Assembly: GCA_028707065.1 (NCBI GenBank) | Contig: JAQTUZ010000014.1 | Span: 1 to 42,811, forward strand | Direction: 5' to 3' | DNA length: 42,811 bases | Source of the DNA: Patescibacteria group bacterium | GTDB lineage: Bacteria; Patescibacteriota; Patescibacteriia; Patescibacteriales; WJLG01 | Shown: positions 4,884 through 20,712 of the stretch, piece after piece | How the letters are laid out: every line of letters begins with the position of its first letter | How positions within the stretch are numbered: position 1 is the stretch's first letter | Position numbers and translations under genes: made by a program | Notes under the pieces: model-generated | Seen by the model: the letters and a program-made list of their open reading frames with translations, nothing else | What the model was told of the DNA's origin: nothing | The model's database searches: none

Positions 4884-5738
4884 ATGAATATCCATCAGTT
4901 TTTTAATTTGATCGGCAATAAGAGACAAACCATTGTTTCCCTGCTTATCATTTTTTTGGCCATCGCCATAATTTTTACGGCCGTTCAGCCGTTCAAATAC
5001 GATTCCAACATGAAGCTCCTGACCATCATCAGCTTCAAGCAGGATATCGATCCCTATACGGCTTCCCGCTCCAATGAATACTTGAGCAATCTTTTGGCGA
5101 ACATCGTTTCTTCCGGATCTTTTTTTGAAAAAATAAAGTCGTCCGGTTTTAAGGTTGACAATAATTATTTTCAGGGCAGCGAAAAACAACAGATAAAAAA
5201 ATGGACCAAGACCGTCAAGGCGAAAAGCGTCGCCGACACCGGGATTATTTCCATCGACGTTTTCCATACTGATCGCGCGCAAGCGGAAGAGATCGCCAAG
5301 GCGGTGGCTTACACTTTGCAAACCACTAATTCGCAGTATCACGGTTTTGGCGACGGCGTCACCATCAAGATCATCGATCAGCCGATCACTTCCAATTATC
5401 CGGTTCAGCCGAATCTGCTTTTGAACCTGGGCTTGGCCGTGGCTTTTGCTTTGATCTTTTCTCTTTGCTATGTTTATTTGTTTCCGGAGGAAAAATATAA
5501 TTTGCGCCTTTGGCCGAACAAAGCGAGGAATGTCGACGTTTCTTTTGACGGCGGCCAGGTGATCGAATCTCCCAATGTTTTTGCTCCGGTGATTGCGCCC
5601 GCCTTCGCCGAGGCTACGGCGGACAAGGAGGATGCGGATACCGAATCAGCCGAATATCAAGAACAAGATTTTACCAATGGTTATAATCCTTCCGATTATC
5701 AGGCCAACGGCAACATGAATAATATCTTGAAAAAATAA
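4884..5738 (+). CDS. Wzz-like polysaccharide chain-length/co-polymerase protein
   Basis: Membrane protein of the Wzz/Wzc N-terminal type, which sets chain length in Wzy-dependent polysaccharide assembly. The topology fits: a first membrane helix at about 18-38 (IVSLLIIFLAIAIIF), an extracytoplasmic domain of about 135 residues, the Pro-rich IDQPITSNYPVQPN and a second helix at about 178-200. There is no kinase domain. The cytoplasmic tail (201-284) is low-complexity and acidic, and contains AFAEATADK at residues 240-248, encoded by a repeat-like stretch at 5601-5627. It is the first gene of the envelope locus, with its own promoter (4765) and no SD. Pairing with the O-antigen polymerase/ligase at 9154 supports the role. 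The specific family was assigned by topology and motif only. Confidence 0.8.
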   Translation: MNIHQFFNLIGNKRQTIVSLLIIFLAIAIIFTAVQPFKYDSNMKLLTIISFKQDIDPYTASRSNEYLSNLLANIVSSGSFFEKIKSSGFKVDNNYFQGSEKQQIKKWTKTVKAKSVADTGIISIDVFHTDRAQAEEIAKAVAYTLQTTNSQYHGFGDGVTIKIIDQPITSNYPVQPNLLLNLGLAVAFALIFSLCYVYLFPEEKYNLRLWPNKARNVDVSFDGGQVIESPNVFAPVIAPAFAEATADKEDADTESAEYQEQDFTNGYNPSDYQANGNMNNILKK

Positions 5739-5740
5739 TA

Positions 5741-5845
5741 ATTCGGATGTGCCCCTTTTCGTAGCGGGGCTCCGCCCCTGGCGGATTACATAAAATTCGG
5801 ATGTGCCCCTTTTCGTAGCGGGGCTCCGCCCCTGGCGGATTACAT
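5741..5845. repeat. 51-bp perfect tandem direct repeat
   Basis: Two identical 51-bp units (5741-5791 and 5795-5845) are separated by AAA. Each contains GCCCC...GCGGGGC and GGGGCTCCGCCCC inverted repeats, so each can form a GC-rich hairpin. The exact identity implies a recent duplication. It lies between the wzz-like gene and the first secreted-protein gene. Confidence 0.95.
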
Positions 5846-5857
5846 ATTTTTGGATTG

Positions 5858-5973: not shown

Positions 5974-7833
5974 ATGGAAAGGTATAAAAGCTTTTCCGCG
6001 GTTCTATTTTTGGTGGCGGTGTTTTTCACTGCCAGCGGACAGTGCCCCGACCAGGCTTATATGCCGGGGATGCCGGTTACTATGGGTCCGGGAGGATCCA
6101 TTTGCGAACAGGCCGCAGCGGCGGATATCGATTGCGCGGTGTTCACTAAGTGTCTGGAGAAATTCCAGCACCTCAAGGTTGACCCGCTGCAGGTTAGCGC
6201 CGTTACGCTCAAATTCTATGTTCCCAAGCAAACGGAACAGGATATCGTCAAGAGGGAACTGGGAATGGCCGAGCCAAGGGCAGAGCCGAAAGCGAAGCCG
6301 AAACAATCGGCCAAACCGCCGGTTTCCCGGAAGTGGACAAGGAAGTGCGCTTCCGTAAAAGATCATGACAAGTATCTTATGGAAACCTACTTCTTGCGGC
6401 ACGGAGAGAATATTTTTACCGTCGCCAAGAGGTACAACAAGAATCCCCAAGTTTTGGCTTGGTTCAATTGTTTTTCCAACCCGGAGAGTTTGCGGGAAGG
6501 ACAGTTAGTTGAAATTCCTGATACTAACTTCCGTTTTTGGATCAATGAAGATGCCGCGCCTTACGGATCTCGTCCGCTGGAAGATGCTTTGGCGGATTGT
6601 GATTTTGACGATTCGGTCAAAACTCGCATGTTAGTTCTTATGAACAACAATGCCTATGAGGACGGGTATATTCAAGGCGGGCAGGTCTTAAAGACGATGG
6701 CTTCGGCGCCGCTTAATGTCAATGGAAAAAGGAGAGTCCACACCGAAAGGAATGTGGTGGTCTGTTTTGAAAACGGTGTCGCAAATCATGGGCGGCTGTT
6801 GAAGGTTGGCCGGGGTGACAGTTTGGATATCGGGGCAGTCCCTGATGTCTGTTACAACTTTTCAACCTGGACCGAACTTGCACCTCCGCCGAAACTTCCG
6901 CCAAAAATGGAAAAACCTCCGCTTGATTCAACCCCTACCCCGCCTCCGCCCGAGCCTCCGGCTGAAGCGCCGCCCAGTCATGGTGTTATGCCCCCCACTA
7001 TTAAGGAAAGCCCGGTTTTTAACCGAGATGAGCTGTTCTTATATGGAGGGACATATTTTCCCGTGCCCTATTTGGGCGACGTGCATAATTATTTTGGAGG
7101 CAGACTGGCGTTATTTTTCCCGACGGCAAGAGGCGCGATATTCGCTTGGGGGCCCAATCTTGGCTTTAACAGCTGGAGAGGGGTCGGACCAAGGGATACT
7201 GTGCCGCAATACCATTACGTCGGAATTCGTCCTTGCGGTGGTTTATCTCTCGATTGGCTGACCGAAACGAGCCGGTCTACGATCTATTTGGACTACGCAG
7301 TCCAGATCGATTGGGGATGGGATAGAAATATTCCGTCTCTGAGATATCACGAGCGGCAGATTACCCAGCTCGCTAATCCCAGTTTTGCTTGGATTTGCGC
7401 GCTTGATTCCTACTGGACCAGATGGATAGGACTGTGGGTCGATGGAGCTTTTGACCTTGGTAATGTTGATCATGTCTTTCATCACAAAACCAGTGATGTT
7501 GGCGGTGTCAGCCTGCTAAAAAGTCAAGCGGTGCTTCATAACAAATCAGCGGTTGATCTGGGATTCTATGTTTTTTACTGGGATATTTCCACGGCCAGAA
7601 CTTCCTTAGTTCTTGGTTCGGGCGTCAAAGGCCTGCATTTGTGGGAGGACAACCGGTATGAAGCGGAGATTGATCAGTTGCTGGACATCAATCATTGGCT
7701 CCAATTCGGAATTGGCTATAAGTACACGGCTAATTCCAGTCTTCGTCTGATGAACGGCCCTTCCTTTGTCGGGTATTTCAATCTTTCCGTCCTGGATATC
7801 GGCAAGTATAAGAAGCCGGATTCAGGCTGGTAA
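5974..7833 (+). CDS. Secreted LysM-domain protein with beta-rich C-terminal domain
   Basis: Predicted exported protein of 619 residues. A Sec signal peptide covers about residues 1-22 (SAVLFLVAVFFTASG). A Cys-containing N-terminal region follows, then a LysM module at about 138-185 (YFLRHGENIFTVAKRYNKNP ... LREGQLVEIPD), a module that binds peptidoglycan or other GlcNAc polymers. Residues 300-345 are a Pro-rich linker. The last 260 residues alternate aromatic and polar residues (GGRLALFFP, STIYLDYAVQIDWGW, LQFGIGYKY) and end in Trp, resembling a membrane beta-barrel, which would be surprising in a presumed single-membrane CPR cell. The start is fixed by AGAGGAG seven bases before ATG 5974. 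It heads a cluster of three secreted genes inside the polysaccharide locus. No specific function is assigned. Confidence 0.85.
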   Translation: MERYKSFSAVLFLVAVFFTASGQCPDQAYMPGMPVTMGPGGSICEQAAAADIDCAVFTKCLEKFQHLKVDPLQVSAVTLKFYVPKQTEQDIVKRELGMAEPRAEPKAKPKQSAKPPVSRKWTRKCASVKDHDKYLMETYFLRHGENIFTVAKRYNKNPQVLAWFNCFSNPESLREGQLVEIPDTNFRFWINEDAAPYGSRPLEDALADCDFDDSVKTRMLVLMNNNAYEDGYIQGGQVLKTMASAPLNVNGKRRVHTERNVVVCFENGVANHGRLLKVGRGDSLDIGAVPDVCYNFSTWTELAPPPKLPPKMEKPPLDSTPTPPPPEPPAEAPPSHGVMPPTIKESPVFNRDELFLYGGTYFPVPYLGDVHNYFGGRLALFFPTARGAIFAWGPNLGFNSWRGVGPRDTVPQYHYVGIRPCGGLSLDWLTETSRSTIYLDYAVQIDWGWDRNIPSLRYHERQITQLANPSFAWICALDSYWTRWIGLWVDGAFDLGNVDHVFHHKTSDVGGVSLLKSQAVLHNKSAVDLGFYVFYWDISTARTSLVLGSGVKGLHLWEDNRYEAEIDQLLDINHWLQFGIGYKYTANSSLRLMNGPSFVGYFNLSVLDIGKYKKPDSGW

Positions 7834-7886
7834 GTCGATTGGTTTGAAAATTTTTTTCACAAAAATCACTTTTTCCAGGAGGTAGT

Positions 7887-8345
7887 ATGAAGTTCAGTAT
7901 TTCCGCAGTCGTCGCGATGATCGCGATGTTGGCCGTTTCCGCCATGGCTTTCACCCCGCCCAATAACGACGAGGTCGGAATCACCACGGACGGAATTATT
8001 TTCGTCAAAGCGCTGAGGATAACCCAGCTGAAACCGCAGGTCAATCCGCCCGGCGTTATGTGCGAGCTGATGAAGGATGCCAATCACCATTGGATCACCG
8101 GTCTAAAAACCAAGCGTGATGGCAACTACTTCATCTACGAAACCGGATTTACCGTACCAGCAGGGAAAGAAGTCCAGTTCTGCTTCTATCTCGGGGTCAA
8201 TTTCTGGATGCCCGACTGTTATTATGAAGGGACGTATGCGTCCTTTGGCGCGGAGTATATTTCCGATTGGAAGGAAAATGCTCCTCCAAACGGTCCCGAC
8301 GGCGGCGGACATAATTTCCGATACTCCGCGGTTCAGGCGAAGTAA
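7887..8345 (+). CDS. Small secreted protein, unknown function
   Basis: Not recognised. The protein has 152 residues and a clear signal peptide (VVAMIAMLAVSAMA, cleavage near residue 21). The mature part (about 131 residues) looks beta-rich, with VPAGKEVQFCFYLGVNFW, DCYYEGTYASFGAEYISDW and two well-separated cysteines; an immunoglobulin- or carbohydrate-binding-like sandwich is possible but only a guess. AGGAGG five bases before ATG 7887 gives a strong SD. It follows the LysM gene by 53 bp and probably shares its transcript, which ends at the terminator at 8369. Confidence 0.78.
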   Translation: MKFSISAVVAMIAMLAVSAMAFTPPNNDEVGITTDGIIFVKALRITQLKPQVNPPGVMCELMKDANHHWITGLKTKRDGNYFIYETGFTVPAGKEVQFCFYLGVNFWMPDCYYEGTYASFGAEYISDWKENAPPNGPDGGGHNFRYSAVQAK

Positions 8346-8368
8346 GTAGCGAAGTAAGTAGTCAAGAA

Positions 8369-8411
8369 GGGGGTGCGAAGAGCAAAGCTTTTCGCACCCC
8401 CCAATTTTTTC
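8369..8411 (+). terminator. Strong intrinsic terminator
   Basis: GGGGGTGCGAA (8369-8379) pairs perfectly with TTCGCACCCCC (8391-8401), followed by CAATTTTTT. It closes the transcript of the LysM gene and the 152-residue secreted protein. Confidence 0.93.
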
Positions 8412-8524
8412 CTACAAATGCTGCGAAAAAGACATCTGAATATTTTCAGCGAATACAATTAAGTCCAAAGATAATTTGGCTTTAATCCTGTTCACTGATT
8501 TCCACTTTTACAAGGAGAAAAATC

Positions 8525-9073
8525 ATGAAATTGCTCGCTCTTTTTTTAATCATCATCGCCTTTCCCGTCTTTTCCCGCCCTCACGACACTATCGAGGTTA
8601 AACTTTCCACGCTTGAAAAAGCAAGCAAGGCGGGAATAACCATCTTTAGTTTTAAGTCAGGCGAATGTATCAAGATCATCAGGGATAGTGCTGCCGATGT
8701 GGCCGGTAATGATGTTTGGGGATTGGACGAAAAAGAAAAGATTGGCAAACAAGCAAGTTGTTTGCCCGCAAGGTTCACTCACGGATTTACCCCCCAGGGC
8801 GATTATTCTCTTGCCAAAGAATCGGTTGAACCGGGAGTGATTCCGGAAGTATCTTTTTCCCCATCCTGGGAAAGGCATAAAATGGTCGATGAGGGCCAAT
8901 ATTATGTCTTTCACTCCGGCGAAAAGATATTCGGCCGGCAAGCTTATCGCTTCTTTATCCGGGGGAAGCAGCTGCCCCAGCCGTCGTCGGTAACCCAATG
9001 GGACGATGCGGTAATCGATGATGGCGGAAAATGTTTTTTCTACTCTTTGCCGCTACCGGCGGGATTAAGATAG
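8525..9073 (+). CDS. Secreted protein, unknown function
   Basis: Not recognised. The protein has 182 residues and a signal peptide (LALFLIIIAFPVFS, cleavage near residue 18). The mature domain has three cysteines (GECIK, ASCLPA, KCFFY) and mixed beta-type segments such as GQYYVFHSGEKIFGRQAYRFF. AAGGAG eight bases before ATG 8525 is a good SD. The gene stands between two strong terminators (8369 and 9098), so it is probably a single-gene transcript, although its promoter was not clear (the 110-bp gap before it holds only weak matches). It is the third of three consecutive secreted SD-led genes. Confidence 0.75.
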   Translation: MKLLALFLIIIAFPVFSRPHDTIEVKLSTLEKASKAGITIFSFKSGECIKIIRDSAADVAGNDVWGLDEKEKIGKQASCLPARFTHGFTPQGDYSLAKESVEPGVIPEVSFSPSWERHKMVDEGQYYVFHSGEKIFGRQAYRFFIRGKQLPQPSSVTQWDDAVIDDGGKCFFYSLPLPAGLR

Positions 9074-16671: not shown

Positions 16672-17856
16672 ATGAAGATTGCAATCATTGGACAAAAAGG
16701 TATCCCGAGCATTTCGGGAGGAGTGGAAAAACACGTGGAAGATTTATCAATCCGCCTGGTTAAGGCCGGCCATGAAGTTTTCGTTTACACCCGTCCGAAT
16801 TATACCGATAAGAATCTGCAGGAATATCAAGGCGTCAAGTTGATTTCCTTGCCTTCCGTCGCCACCAAACATTTGGACGCGATCACTCACACCTTTCGCG
16901 CCTGTTTGGACGTGGCCAAACGCGACGTGGACGTCATCCATTTCCATTCCATCGGGCCGTCTTCGCTGATCTGGCTGGTAAAAATGTTGAAGCCGGGCGT
17001 GCCGGTCGTCGCCACTTTTCATTCCCAATGCTACAAGCATCAGAAATGGGGGATCTTTGCCAAGGCTTATTTGAAATTCGGCGAATTCATCGCTTGCCGC
17101 CTGGCTGATAGAACCATCACGGTTTCCAAGAATCTCAAGGAATACACCATCAAGAAATATGGCCGCGTTCCCGAATACATTCCCAACGGCGTCGAGGCCG
17201 GCAAAAAAACGGCCGCCCACGATATCAAATATTTCGGCTTGAAGAAAGACAATTATATTTTGGCTTTGGGCCGCATCATTAAGCACAAGGGTTTGCAATA
17301 TTTAATTAAAGCGTTCAAGAACGTGAAGACCGATAAAAAATTGGTGATCGTCGGCGGCAGCGCCCATACCGATAAGTTCGTCAAAGAGCTTAAGGATTTG
17401 GCGCGCGGCGACAAGCGCATCATTTTTACCGGTCCGCAGCATGGGCCGATCGTTCCGGAATTGTTTGCCAACGCCTATCTTTTCGTCCAACCGTCCGAAT
17501 CGGAAGGTTTGTCGATCGCGCTGCTGGAAGCGATGGCGCACGGCACTGCCACGCTGGTTTCGGATATTCCGGAAAATCGCGAAGCGATCTCTTATACCGG
17601 CTATACTTTCAAGAGCAAGAACGTCGCTGATCTGATGGGCAAGCTGAACGGCCTGTTGCGCAATCCCGAGATTGTCCGCGAGATGGGCGAGATGCAGAGA
17701 AAAAGGGCCGCCAGCGAATACAATTGGGAAAAAGTTTCTGATAAAGTCCAGAATGTTTATCGTTCCGTGGCTTTTCCGCAAAAGGCGGCGGGCAAATCCG
17801 CTCAAGGCGTGCGCAAATTGAAATTCGCGCAGAGGTTTTTGAATTTATTCTTTTAA
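16672..17856 (+). CDS. GT4-family glycosyltransferase
   Basis: GT-B glycosyltransferase of 394 residues, of the type with the N-terminus IAIIGQKGIPSISGGVEKHV (rhamnosyltransferase-like families begin this way). HFHSIGPSSLIWL, TFHSQCYKHQKWG and YIPNGVEAG follow; the second domain starts YILALGRIIKHKGLQYLI and includes PSESEGLSIALLEAMAHG, a normal E-x7-E donor site. The tail is basic (KLKFAQRFLNLFF) and may touch the membrane. Function: adds a sugar, perhaps the first or a branching residue, to the lipid-linked glycan; the sugar is not known. No SD. It closes the first polysaccharide locus. Confidence 0.93.
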   Translation: MKIAIIGQKGIPSISGGVEKHVEDLSIRLVKAGHEVFVYTRPNYTDKNLQEYQGVKLISLPSVATKHLDAITHTFRACLDVAKRDVDVIHFHSIGPSSLIWLVKMLKPGVPVVATFHSQCYKHQKWGIFAKAYLKFGEFIACRLADRTITVSKNLKEYTIKKYGRVPEYIPNGVEAGKKTAAHDIKYFGLKKDNYILALGRIIKHKGLQYLIKAFKNVKTDKKLVIVGGSAHTDKFVKELKDLARGDKRIIFTGPQHGPIVPELFANAYLFVQPSESEGLSIALLEAMAHGTATLVSDIPENREAISYTGYTFKSKNVADLMGKLNGLLRNPEIVREMGEMQRKRAASEYNWEKVSDKVQNVYRSVAFPQKAAGKSAQGVRKLKFAQRFLNLFF

Positions 17857-17998: not shown

Positions 17999-18046
17999 AC
18001 GGTTAATTAACAGAAACAGAAATTTTAAACCAAAAAGGGAGGTCCT

Positions 18047-20071
18047 ATGAAAAGGACTGTGTGTTTGTGGTTGATGACAGTGTTGGTGGCAGCCGGTTTT
18101 TTCGGCTGTCAGGACAATCCGGCGAGTCTTCCGACCCCCGGATCAACGGACACAATCGATGTTTCAGTGCCGATCTTCGGCCTGGTCAGTTCAAGCCAGG
18201 TCAGTGACAGCATCTGGACTTATGAGATCGCTCTTAAGGCCAGCGCTTATCAGCCGGCAGCCACCAACGCCGTAATGTTCGGCGCTCTTGGCACCAACTG
18301 GAATCTTTTGAGCAATGCCACGAATGGCGTGCTTTCCGGCGGTGCCTGGAATTTCACTTTTACGGTGAAAAACGGTCCGCGGCTGGTAAATTTTTCGAGC
18401 AAGACCGGGAACTGGGCCCAGCTTGACAGTCTGAAGAAATGCGATTTCTATCAGGCATCGAGCAAGGGCGGCGACTTGGCCATCGATTTTGAAAATGGCC
18501 AATTGCTGCACACCAGCAATGTCGTGACGATCCATACCGTTGACACGATGTATATCGTGAAGACGATCGTGGTCGATAGCATTCTCCGCGTCCGTGATAC
18601 GGTCATTGATACTGTGTGGTCAAACCGTCAGATTCATGATTCGATCCACACCGTGGACACCGTTCGCGTGCCGTCAAAGACCGACACTGTTATGCTTGGC
18701 GATCTTGTCAAGCAGGTGGGCAATGTCGATCTGGGCAATGGCTCGTTCAGAACCACTTTGATTTTCAGTCCGCTTCTGGTTAAGAAGAATGCCACTGCCA
18801 ACTGGGTTCCGTTCGGCGCGGGGTTCCCGCCCTATTACAGCTGGAACAAGGATTCAGTTATGGCGCTGGGACAACAGCGGCCAGATGGCTACTACCCACT
18901 GACCTATGTTTCGAAGCCGGGTTTCTTGACCTGTGACGTTGGCGGCGATTACAATCATGCCTGGGCCAATGACAGTCTGCTCGCGAAAGCGCCCTGGGGT
19001 TTCAAAACCCCGACCGGGTATGTCATTCGGCTGTACGAGAATAAAGCCGGTTGGGTTTTTCCCGCCAGTCTCGTGTATGTCGATACGACCACCAAGGTGG
19101 TGCATGACACGACGGTAAGGGTTGATACGGTAAAAACGCCGCAGAAGATTGTGTGGATTATCGATAGCGTTTTTACCATCAGAACCCAGCATGATACGAC
19201 CGTCATTCGTACCCACGATACGGTTACCGTGATGACGATCAGGATCGTTAAGGATACGGTGCAACTGCCGGGAAAGATCGCCTACATCACAGATACGTTG
19301 AGGATCTATTACGTCACCCATGATACGGTCAGAACAAAGCCGGATACGGTGTTTGTTCCCATTCATGTTTATGACACAACGTTCGTGATCAGGGTAATTC
19401 CTCCCGATACGGTTTTCCTGCCCGGGAGGATTATAATCGTCCATGACACTCTCAAGCAGGTTAACACCGACACGATCCACGTGAAAGACACGGTCGTCTT
19501 TACGGCGGTGGATAAGGGGGTGGCGGTTGACAGCTCCAAAAACTTCCTGCGCGATACCTCGTGGTTGGAATCCAACCATTTAAAAGGTGTGGTGACGGAA
19601 GATACAGTGGTGACGACCAGAGCGATTCATTCGGTGCTCTGGATATCGCCCAAGGGAGATTCAACCGTTAAGCGCGACACAGCCTCGTCCACGAAGATCT
19701 ATCAGTACCGGGCGGACACTATTTCTTTGGTGATCGCTCAATACGGCAGTAGCGTGGTCGGCGCCGATACGATCTATCGGTTCGGCGTGACTGTCAAGGC
19801 CTTTGCTTATTCCGGCAAGGGCGACGATTCCGCGAGCCTCACCGGTTTGGCGGACACGAGCAAATGGAAATTTGTCGGCAAGATCGGAGGGTATTTCGTC
19901 TTTGACGCCAAGTTGATTGGCGGGACGACCTACAACTTCAATTTTGTCGGCAATAAAGGGACCTGGGCCCAGCAGGAAATACTTCTGCTTAGTCCCTTGG
20001 CCGTCAAGACCGGAGGCAATTGCGATATTGTCTCTCGAGCGGTCTACGGCACCGGCCTAGTAAAACCGTAA
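18047..20071 (+). CDS. Large lipoprotein with HDT-repeat stalk and duplicated end domains
   Basis: Predicted surface lipoprotein of 674 residues. The signal sequence ends VLVAAGFFG followed by Cys21; the box is near-canonical (Phe at -3 is unusual). Residues about 30-160 and 555-670 are related: compare LKASAY with VKAFAY, and NFSSKTGNWAQL with NFVGNKGTWAQQ. Between them, at 160-225 and 345-490, runs a stalk of short degenerate repeats built on HDT or VDT with V/I neighbours (VRDTVIDTV, TIHVKDTVVF and so on), typical of extended beta surface stalks. A middle domain (about 225-345, YYSWNKDSVMALGQQ, GYVIRLYENKAGWVFPA) splits the stalk. GGGAGG at 18035-18045 gives a strong SD. A strong terminator follows. 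Function unknown; adhesion or presentation of a ligand is a hypothesis. Confidence 0.85.
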   Translation: MKRTVCLWLMTVLVAAGFFGCQDNPASLPTPGSTDTIDVSVPIFGLVSSSQVSDSIWTYEIALKASAYQPAATNAVMFGALGTNWNLLSNATNGVLSGGAWNFTFTVKNGPRLVNFSSKTGNWAQLDSLKKCDFYQASSKGGDLAIDFENGQLLHTSNVVTIHTVDTMYIVKTIVVDSILRVRDTVIDTVWSNRQIHDSIHTVDTVRVPSKTDTVMLGDLVKQVGNVDLGNGSFRTTLIFSPLLVKKNATANWVPFGAGFPPYYSWNKDSVMALGQQRPDGYYPLTYVSKPGFLTCDVGGDYNHAWANDSLLAKAPWGFKTPTGYVIRLYENKAGWVFPASLVYVDTTTKVVHDTTVRVDTVKTPQKIVWIIDSVFTIRTQHDTTVIRTHDTVTVMTIRIVKDTVQLPGKIAYITDTLRIYYVTHDTVRTKPDTVFVPIHVYDTTFVIRVIPPDTVFLPGRIIIVHDTLKQVNTDTIHVKDTVVFTAVDKGVAVDSSKNFLRDTSWLESNHLKGVVTEDTVVTTRAIHSVLWISPKGDSTVKRDTASSTKIYQYRADTISLVIAQYGSSVVGADTIYRFGVTVKAFAYSGKGDDSASLTGLADTSKWKFVGKIGGYFVFDAKLIGGTTYNFNFVGNKGTWAQQEILLLSPLAVKTGGNCDIVSRAVYGTGLVKP

Positions 20072-20226: not shown

Positions 20227-20308
20227 TAATACATCGAACATTTTACGAATTTTTATTCGGTTCGCAGAGTTCGCGGTATTCGCGTAAAATTTGTAGTATT
20301 CGTGTCAT
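20227..20308. repeat. TTCGTAGTATTCG word cluster
   Basis: Words of the family-C type: TACGAATTTTTATTCG, GTTCGCGGTATTCGCG, GTAGTATTCGTGTC. More degenerate than the inverted pairs at 16539 and 22617. Confidence 0.6.
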
Positions 20309-20316
20309 GTTTTTTT

Positions 20317-20712
20317 ATGATTTTATATCTTAATACAATTAGTCAGCCGGAGATTGAGATCGCGATCAAGGACGGCGAAAAAATTATCGCCCAAAGCAAG
20401 ATCGAGGCCAGGCGGGTGCAGGCGGAAAAATTATTAATGGCCGTGGAAACGATTTTGCGGAAGAAAAAAATAAAATTGTCGGCCTTAGAAGCGGTGGAAG
20501 TGGAAAATAAGGGCGGCAGTTTTACTTCCTTGCGCATTGGCGTGGCCGTGGCCAACGCGCTTGGTTTTGCGTTAGGGGTGCCGGTTAGGGGAACGGCCGG
20601 AACAGCCAAGACAGTTGGCACGATTAACGTTATCGAACCGATTTATGATCGAGAACCGGATATTGGAAAGAGCAAAGAACAAAGAGCAAAGAACAGTCGA
20701 ACTTATTTTTAG
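20317..20712 (+). CDS. tsaB: TsaB-like protein (short form), tRNA t6A synthesis
   Basis: TsaB is the non-catalytic partner of TsaD in making the t6A modification of ANN-decoding tRNAs. The core motif is present: LSALEAVEVENKGGSFTSLR, then IGVAVANALGFALGVPV, matching the usual GPGSFTGLRIG pattern with the first Gly-Pro changed to Asn-Lys. At 131 residues it holds only the N-terminal ASKHA half; typical TsaB has about 220-230. ATG 20317 is chosen over a GTG at 20302 as it gives MILYLNTI, a natural family start. The last 14 residues (SKEQRAKNSRTYF) are read from one arm of an AAAGAGCAAAGAACA repeat, so the natural end of the gene has been overrun. No SD. Confidence 0.8.
   Translation: MILYLNTISQPEIEIAIKDGEKIIAQSKIEARRVQAEKLLMAVETILRKKKIKLSALEAVEVENKGGSFTSLRIGVAVANALGFALGVPVRGTAGTAKTVGTINVIEPIYDREPDIGKSKEQRAKNSRTYF

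Follow-up and report, generated by a model that had tools for sequence, protein, structure and literature searches.

The gene at 18047-20071 of the window (the whole stretch of 42,811 nucleotides that was analysed) encodes a 674-residue protein that, on balance, seems to be one of the changing occupants of a lipoprotein slot that is specific to its family, turns over fast and lies on the edge of a surface-glycan cluster; binding is its likely task. In particular, the protein probably serves in attachment or ligand binding, as judged solely from its architecture, position and turnover, and it is probably a fast-changing contact protein rather than the product of a gene that can be traced to a host. 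Little is known about how episymbiotic CPR cells recognise their hosts and hold on to them (PMC12206443), and a slot with differing anchored lipoproteins in each species, beside glycan genes, would yield a concrete set of candidates for contact proteins.

The genome that carries the gene (G000; 95% completeness, 4.8% estimated contamination) is consistent with a member of the CPR/Patescibacteria, which is not a formal classification. Ribosomal protein bL9, which is missing in part of the CPR, was not found in this genome, versus 10 of 14 control genomes in which it was present (note that its absence could also reflect the 95% completeness). Genomes of the order span approximately 0.6-1.4 Mb, and the cell that carries the gene is very small and probably parasitic. 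Despite the estimated contamination, synteny indicates that the contig is sound. The features of the slot and its borders are as follows:

16672 to 17856, plus strand: family 4 glycosyltransferase (Pfam), bordering the slot on the left; its syntenic G001 counterpart is 84% identical
18041 to 18058, plus strand: putative start-codon hairpin GGTCCT-ATGAAA-AGGACT, with the AUG in the loop and the Shine-Dalgarno site running into the 5' arm
18047 to 20071, plus strand: gene for the DT-stalk protein, a predicted lipoprotein; complete ATG-to-stop ORF of 674 residues
18047 to 18109, plus strand: predicted lipoprotein signal peptide up to C21 (MKRTVCLWLMTVLVAAGFFG^C), from the sequence, the lipobox AGFFGC and an LspA gene in the genome
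20097 to 20127, plus strand: terminator-like hairpin closing the unit; 14-bp stem, then a T run
20302 to 20712, plus strand: TsaB-like gene, bordering the slot on the right (NCBIfam T6A_YeaZ at E 7e-17, slightly short of the model cut-off)

What occupies this position turns over, or diverges very fast, from genome to genome; fast divergence is also seen in another exported protein of the window, of 619 aa (5974-7833; see below). Around the slot lie a Wzz-like gene, a Wzy/O-antigen ligase gene and several glycosyltransferase genes, and the TsaB-like gene, which is syntenic in G001, G005, G006 and G011, is followed by the mraZ-rsmH-ftsL cell-wall cluster. G001, a genome of the same genus, has the same gene order (with a MraZ that is 99% identical), and two lipoprotein genes sit in its gap between the glycosyltransferase and tsaB-mraZ; their products, one PKD-like and of 442 aa, the other of 162 aa, have one domain in common. 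In G002, which belongs to the same family, two lipoproteins of approximately 401 and 285 aa, mutual paralogues, are encoded in the gap behind this glycosyltransferase (the G002 contig stops before tsaB, and the right border lies outside it). Beyond the family, the two border genes abut in G011, and unrelated genes occupy the position in G005 and G006. The slot lipoproteins of G001 and G002 resemble ours in chromosomal position and in their lipoprotein-type leader, whereas they are without a DT stalk, differ in domain content and have no significant sequence similarity to it (a domain of the 162-aa protein is possibly common with ours). Note that the G006 slot (L077:6394-8409) contains a 671-aa glycoside-hydrolase-like protein with FG-GAP-like repeats, and that a 638-aa ORF similar to this protein is found elsewhere in G000, on contig C15 (L113:16-1932). 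A relative of one G002 slot lipoprotein is also found elsewhere in G000 (L189:9836-10771; E 4e-11).

The coordinates of the ORF are exact, a strong Shine-Dalgarno site (GGGAGG) lies upstream of it, and with its terminator-like hairpin the gene appears to be a complete, monocistronic-looking unit. The N-terminus of the protein, MKRTVCLWLMTVLVAAGFFGC, begins with charged residues, continues into a hydrophobic core and contains a lipobox at C21; it passes a lipoprotein motif scan, and would be processed by the lipoprotein signal peptidase LspA, whose gene is present in the genome (PF01252, E 6.7e-19). The lipobox is plausible and non-canonical, F being unusual at -3 and -2, which counts against the reading as a surface lipoprotein. 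A crude motif scan of G000 returned 37 lipoprotein-like ORFs. (Among the lipoprotein-like ORFs of this genome are L140:8831-9691, L111:18311-19216, L157:4525-5628, L160:10643-11176, L189:9836-10771 and L195:181-1341; several start with motifs of the C-x(n)-NP/GP type, and there is one weak match to CBM9 and one to Big_5.)

Within the protein the following parts, all encoded on the plus strand, could be delimited:

Residues 37-158 (18155 to 18520): N-terminal end domain, similar to the C-terminal domain
Residues 160-214 (18524 to 18688): DT-rich stalk 1, from DT enrichment and a V/T/I/D composition
Residues 215-345 (18689 to 19081): middle globular segment; aligns with the G001 162-aa slot lipoprotein, which is suggestive only
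Residues 346-490 (19082 to 19516): DT-rich stalk 2, from DT enrichment and direct reading
Start residues 360, 403 and 454: three larger units DTVxxPx(K/R)I...D(T/S) within stalk 2, from direct reading
Residues 552-674 (19700 to 20068): C-terminal end domain, similar to the N-terminal domain; strands only in a low-confidence model

The N- and C-terminal domains are 26% identical (pairwise BLASTP E 8e-5), have the same motif order and align with a local score of 58 over approximately 94 residues. Of the shuffles, 2 of 2000 and 4 of 10000 reached this score; among 5664 same-length windows of real proteins from this genome and its sister, not one did. Thus, the duplication proposed in the preliminary description is borne out, and the relationship between the two domains is genuine, though weak and ancient. 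Their motifs had been called near-identical; similar they are, but NFSSKTGNWAQL and NFVGNKGTWAQQ share 6 of 12 residues and LKASAY and VKAFAY 4 of 6, so that near-identity does not hold. (The middle segment was rejected as a further homologue of the end domains, to which it has no detectable relationship.) The V/I-HDT or VDT stalk proposed between the end domains is evident from 26 DT dipeptides versus 5.8 expected from shuffles (4.5-fold) and 16 DT[VI] motifs versus 1.0, and the DT motifs fall into two blocks at approximately residues 160-214 and 346-490. DT spacing within the stalks is irregular (4-14 residues), and no tandem repeat is left in the DNA of the stalk region, which together suggest that the stalk is old or was assembled piecemeal. 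The proposed dumbbell shape fared less well: there are three globular segments rather than two, and AlphaFold, run without a real alignment, resolved none of them, with a pLDDT of 46.9 for the C-terminal domain (strands only) and of 28.4 for the whole protein. Given three segments, "beads on a string" is the better description of the sequence.

We infer that a lipid at C21 would tether the 674-residue protein to the outside of the membrane, with its three globular segments, the outer two of them ancient duplicates, spaced by extended, beta-prone, DT-rich stalks. The stalks would let the distal domains reach out through the glycan coat, and a ligand or a partner cell is what these domains would most likely bind.

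The protein belongs to no family that we could recognise: there was no match above cut-off in Pfam, NCBIfam or PDB sequences, and no relative was found in 192 related genomes, in 381 genomes of the class (where one marginal match is an ABC transporter), in approximately 85,000 species genomes searched by peptide pattern, or in viral contigs, plasmids or phages. (Viral HDT matches were set aside as relatives; they belong to small phage proteins or to short membrane proteins, all of which lack the end-domain motif.) A two-row profile of the end domain retrieved from 380 genomes of the phylum this gene alone, together with a marginal 31-residue match (E 0.0096) that we counted as chance. A broad CPR distribution, which the preliminary description had named as an outcome that would refute it, did not emerge from these 192 related genomes, 381 class genomes and 380 phylum genomes. 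Two marginal matches of the same profile in 168 Fibrobacterota genomes were inspected and likewise judged to be chance.

The preliminary description had also held that HDT stalks are typical of Fibrobacterota or Bacteroidetes, and had entertained transfer from a host. The former is supported: a strict three-unit HDT DNA pattern, searched in approximately 85,000 species genomes, had 10 matches, of which 5 are labelled Fibrobacter, 5 are of Bacteroidetes/Bacteroidales type and none is from the CPR. This confinement argues for horizontal acquisition, either of the gene or just of the stalk, from a host or neighbour of the Fibrobacterota or Bacteroidota type, a reading that we nevertheless consider improbable. 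The Fibrobacter and Bacteroidetes proteins (loci L087-L096), most of which appear to be exported, are like ours in their HDT[VI]x[VI] units, whereas their stalks have a regular six-residue spacing, are mostly short and are attached to leucine-rich-repeat-like or short coiled proteins. Alignment with ours is limited to the stalk and the globular domains are not homologous; in short, nothing beyond the stalk is common to them, and an irregularly spaced DT stalk such as ours could easily arise by convergence. The comparison of codon use is divided, for GC and GC3 of the gene are the highest among 57 sampled long genes, in keeping with transfer, yet its codon-usage deviation is ordinary (rank 11 of 57, native range). 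Further evidence against transfer comes from the absence of all but chance matches to the end-domain profile in the 168 Fibrobacterota genomes, and from the presence of lipoproteins in the slot of all three family genomes. There is a precedent for the sharing of such repeats, as a PTD repeat of the CPR gracilibacterium BD1-5 also occurs in a co-occurring Colwellia, although the authors rated convergence at least as likely as transfer (PMC6851277). Like ours, the BD1-5 protein is a CPR surface protein with a short Asp/Thr-containing repeat; its repeat recurs in another phylum, in an unrelated protein that is otherwise unlike it, and attachment was proposed as its role (PMC6851277). The BD1-5 repeat is a perfect tripeptide in hypervariable DNA, and the protein has a single N-terminal transmembrane segment (PMC6851277), whereas ours has an irregular xDT[VI] motif, a lipoprotein-type leader, duplicated globular domains and no DNA repeat.

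Two further alternatives concern how the slot changes and what its occupants do. Extreme vertical divergence would derive our protein, the G001 442/162-aa pair and perhaps the G002 pair from one ancestral slot lipoprotein, with DT stalks gained and a domain duplicated and with no replacement of genes; it is thus a sub-case of the variable-slot reading that differs in how the slot changes, and we think it rather unlikely. The conserved position and the similar leader peptides would suit it, as would the start-codon hairpin (see below) that most slot genes of the three genomes have, the 162-aa gene being without one. A neighbouring secreted protein (619 aa, 5974-7833) has also diverged fast, being only 26% identical to its syntenic G001 counterpart over half its length, versus 73-99% for many adjacent housekeeping genes. 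The middle and C-terminal domains weakly favour the G001 162-aa protein, which they rank 2nd and 3rd among 2204 proteins (shuffle p approximately 1e-3), but the best chance matches equal these scores, an ABC ATPase and an FG-GAP-like protein, both clearly unrelated, among them, and we do not claim homology. Profile-profile comparison was also not significant, and the G002 slot proteins match neither ours nor the G001 pair. A purely structural role, as a coat or spacer lipoprotein that gives order to the glycan layer and binds no partner cell, would account for the location in a glycan cluster, for a stalk that dominates the protein and for the lack of a recognisable binding domain in Pfam. This alternative appears unlikely, as no known surface-layer module was found in Pfam or NCBIfam and fast turnover characterises contact proteins more than structural ones.

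The gene starts within a hairpin (18041-18058; RNA fold z = -3.4) that was matched in stability by none of 200 shuffles; Rfam gave no credible match in this region. Hairpins of the same kind, with different arms, are present on the G001 442-aa gene (L073; GGACC/GGTCC) and the G002 285-aa gene (L075; GGTCC/GGACC), on the G002 401-aa gene only when a G-U pair is allowed, and not on the G001 162-aa gene. Other exported-protein genes of G000, G001 and G002 have them as well (L157:4525, L160:10643, L129:18419, L227:230 and L201:7794). We compared exported with other genes, counting stems of at least 6 Watson-Crick pairs with a loop of at most 10 that holds the AUG. In a first set (fetched parts of G000, part of G001 and one G002 contig), 7 of 71 exported genes had such a stem, versus 0.7 expected when downstream parts were swapped and versus 3 of 231 other genes (p 0.002). 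In the held-back rest of G001 the counts were 3 of 20 and 0 of 89 (p 0.005). Note that these counts are not fully independent, since 2 of the 3 held-back genes are relatives of a first-set gene and 2 of the 7 first-set genes are mutual orthologues. The best single evidence is the complementarity of the arms in three differing G001 leaders of one paralogous lipoprotein family (GATTAG/CTAATC, ATTGGTT/AACCAAT and TTCG/CGAA), in which codon changes are matched in the leader.

We regard the hairpin as a lead, because it was found post hoc, in G000, G001 and G002 only, and because 4 of 6 individual folds have weak z-scores. It is possible, and we propose it tentatively, that the exported-protein genes of this CPR lineage, this one included, form a regulon marked by a start-codon hairpin with the Shine-Dalgarno site at or in the 5' arm, the AUG in the loop and arms that stay complementary while their sequence changes. 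If so, a common translational switch would control the fast-evolving lipoprotein coat, and start-codon hairpins could flag further candidate contact proteins in uncultivated genomes.

The window contains a second island of exported proteins, at 5974-9073 (G001 L074:4604-7629), between the Wzz-like and the Wzy/O-antigen-ligase genes. It encodes the 619-aa protein mentioned above and two small secreted proteins. Part of the 619-aa protein is LysM-like, and its C-terminus looks, by eye, like an outer-membrane barrel, which would be odd for a monoderm CPR cell. Just before this island, at 5738-5850, lies a tandem copy of the GC-rich stretch TTCGGATGTGCCCCTTTTCGTAGCGGGGCTCCGCCCCTGGCGGATTACATA.
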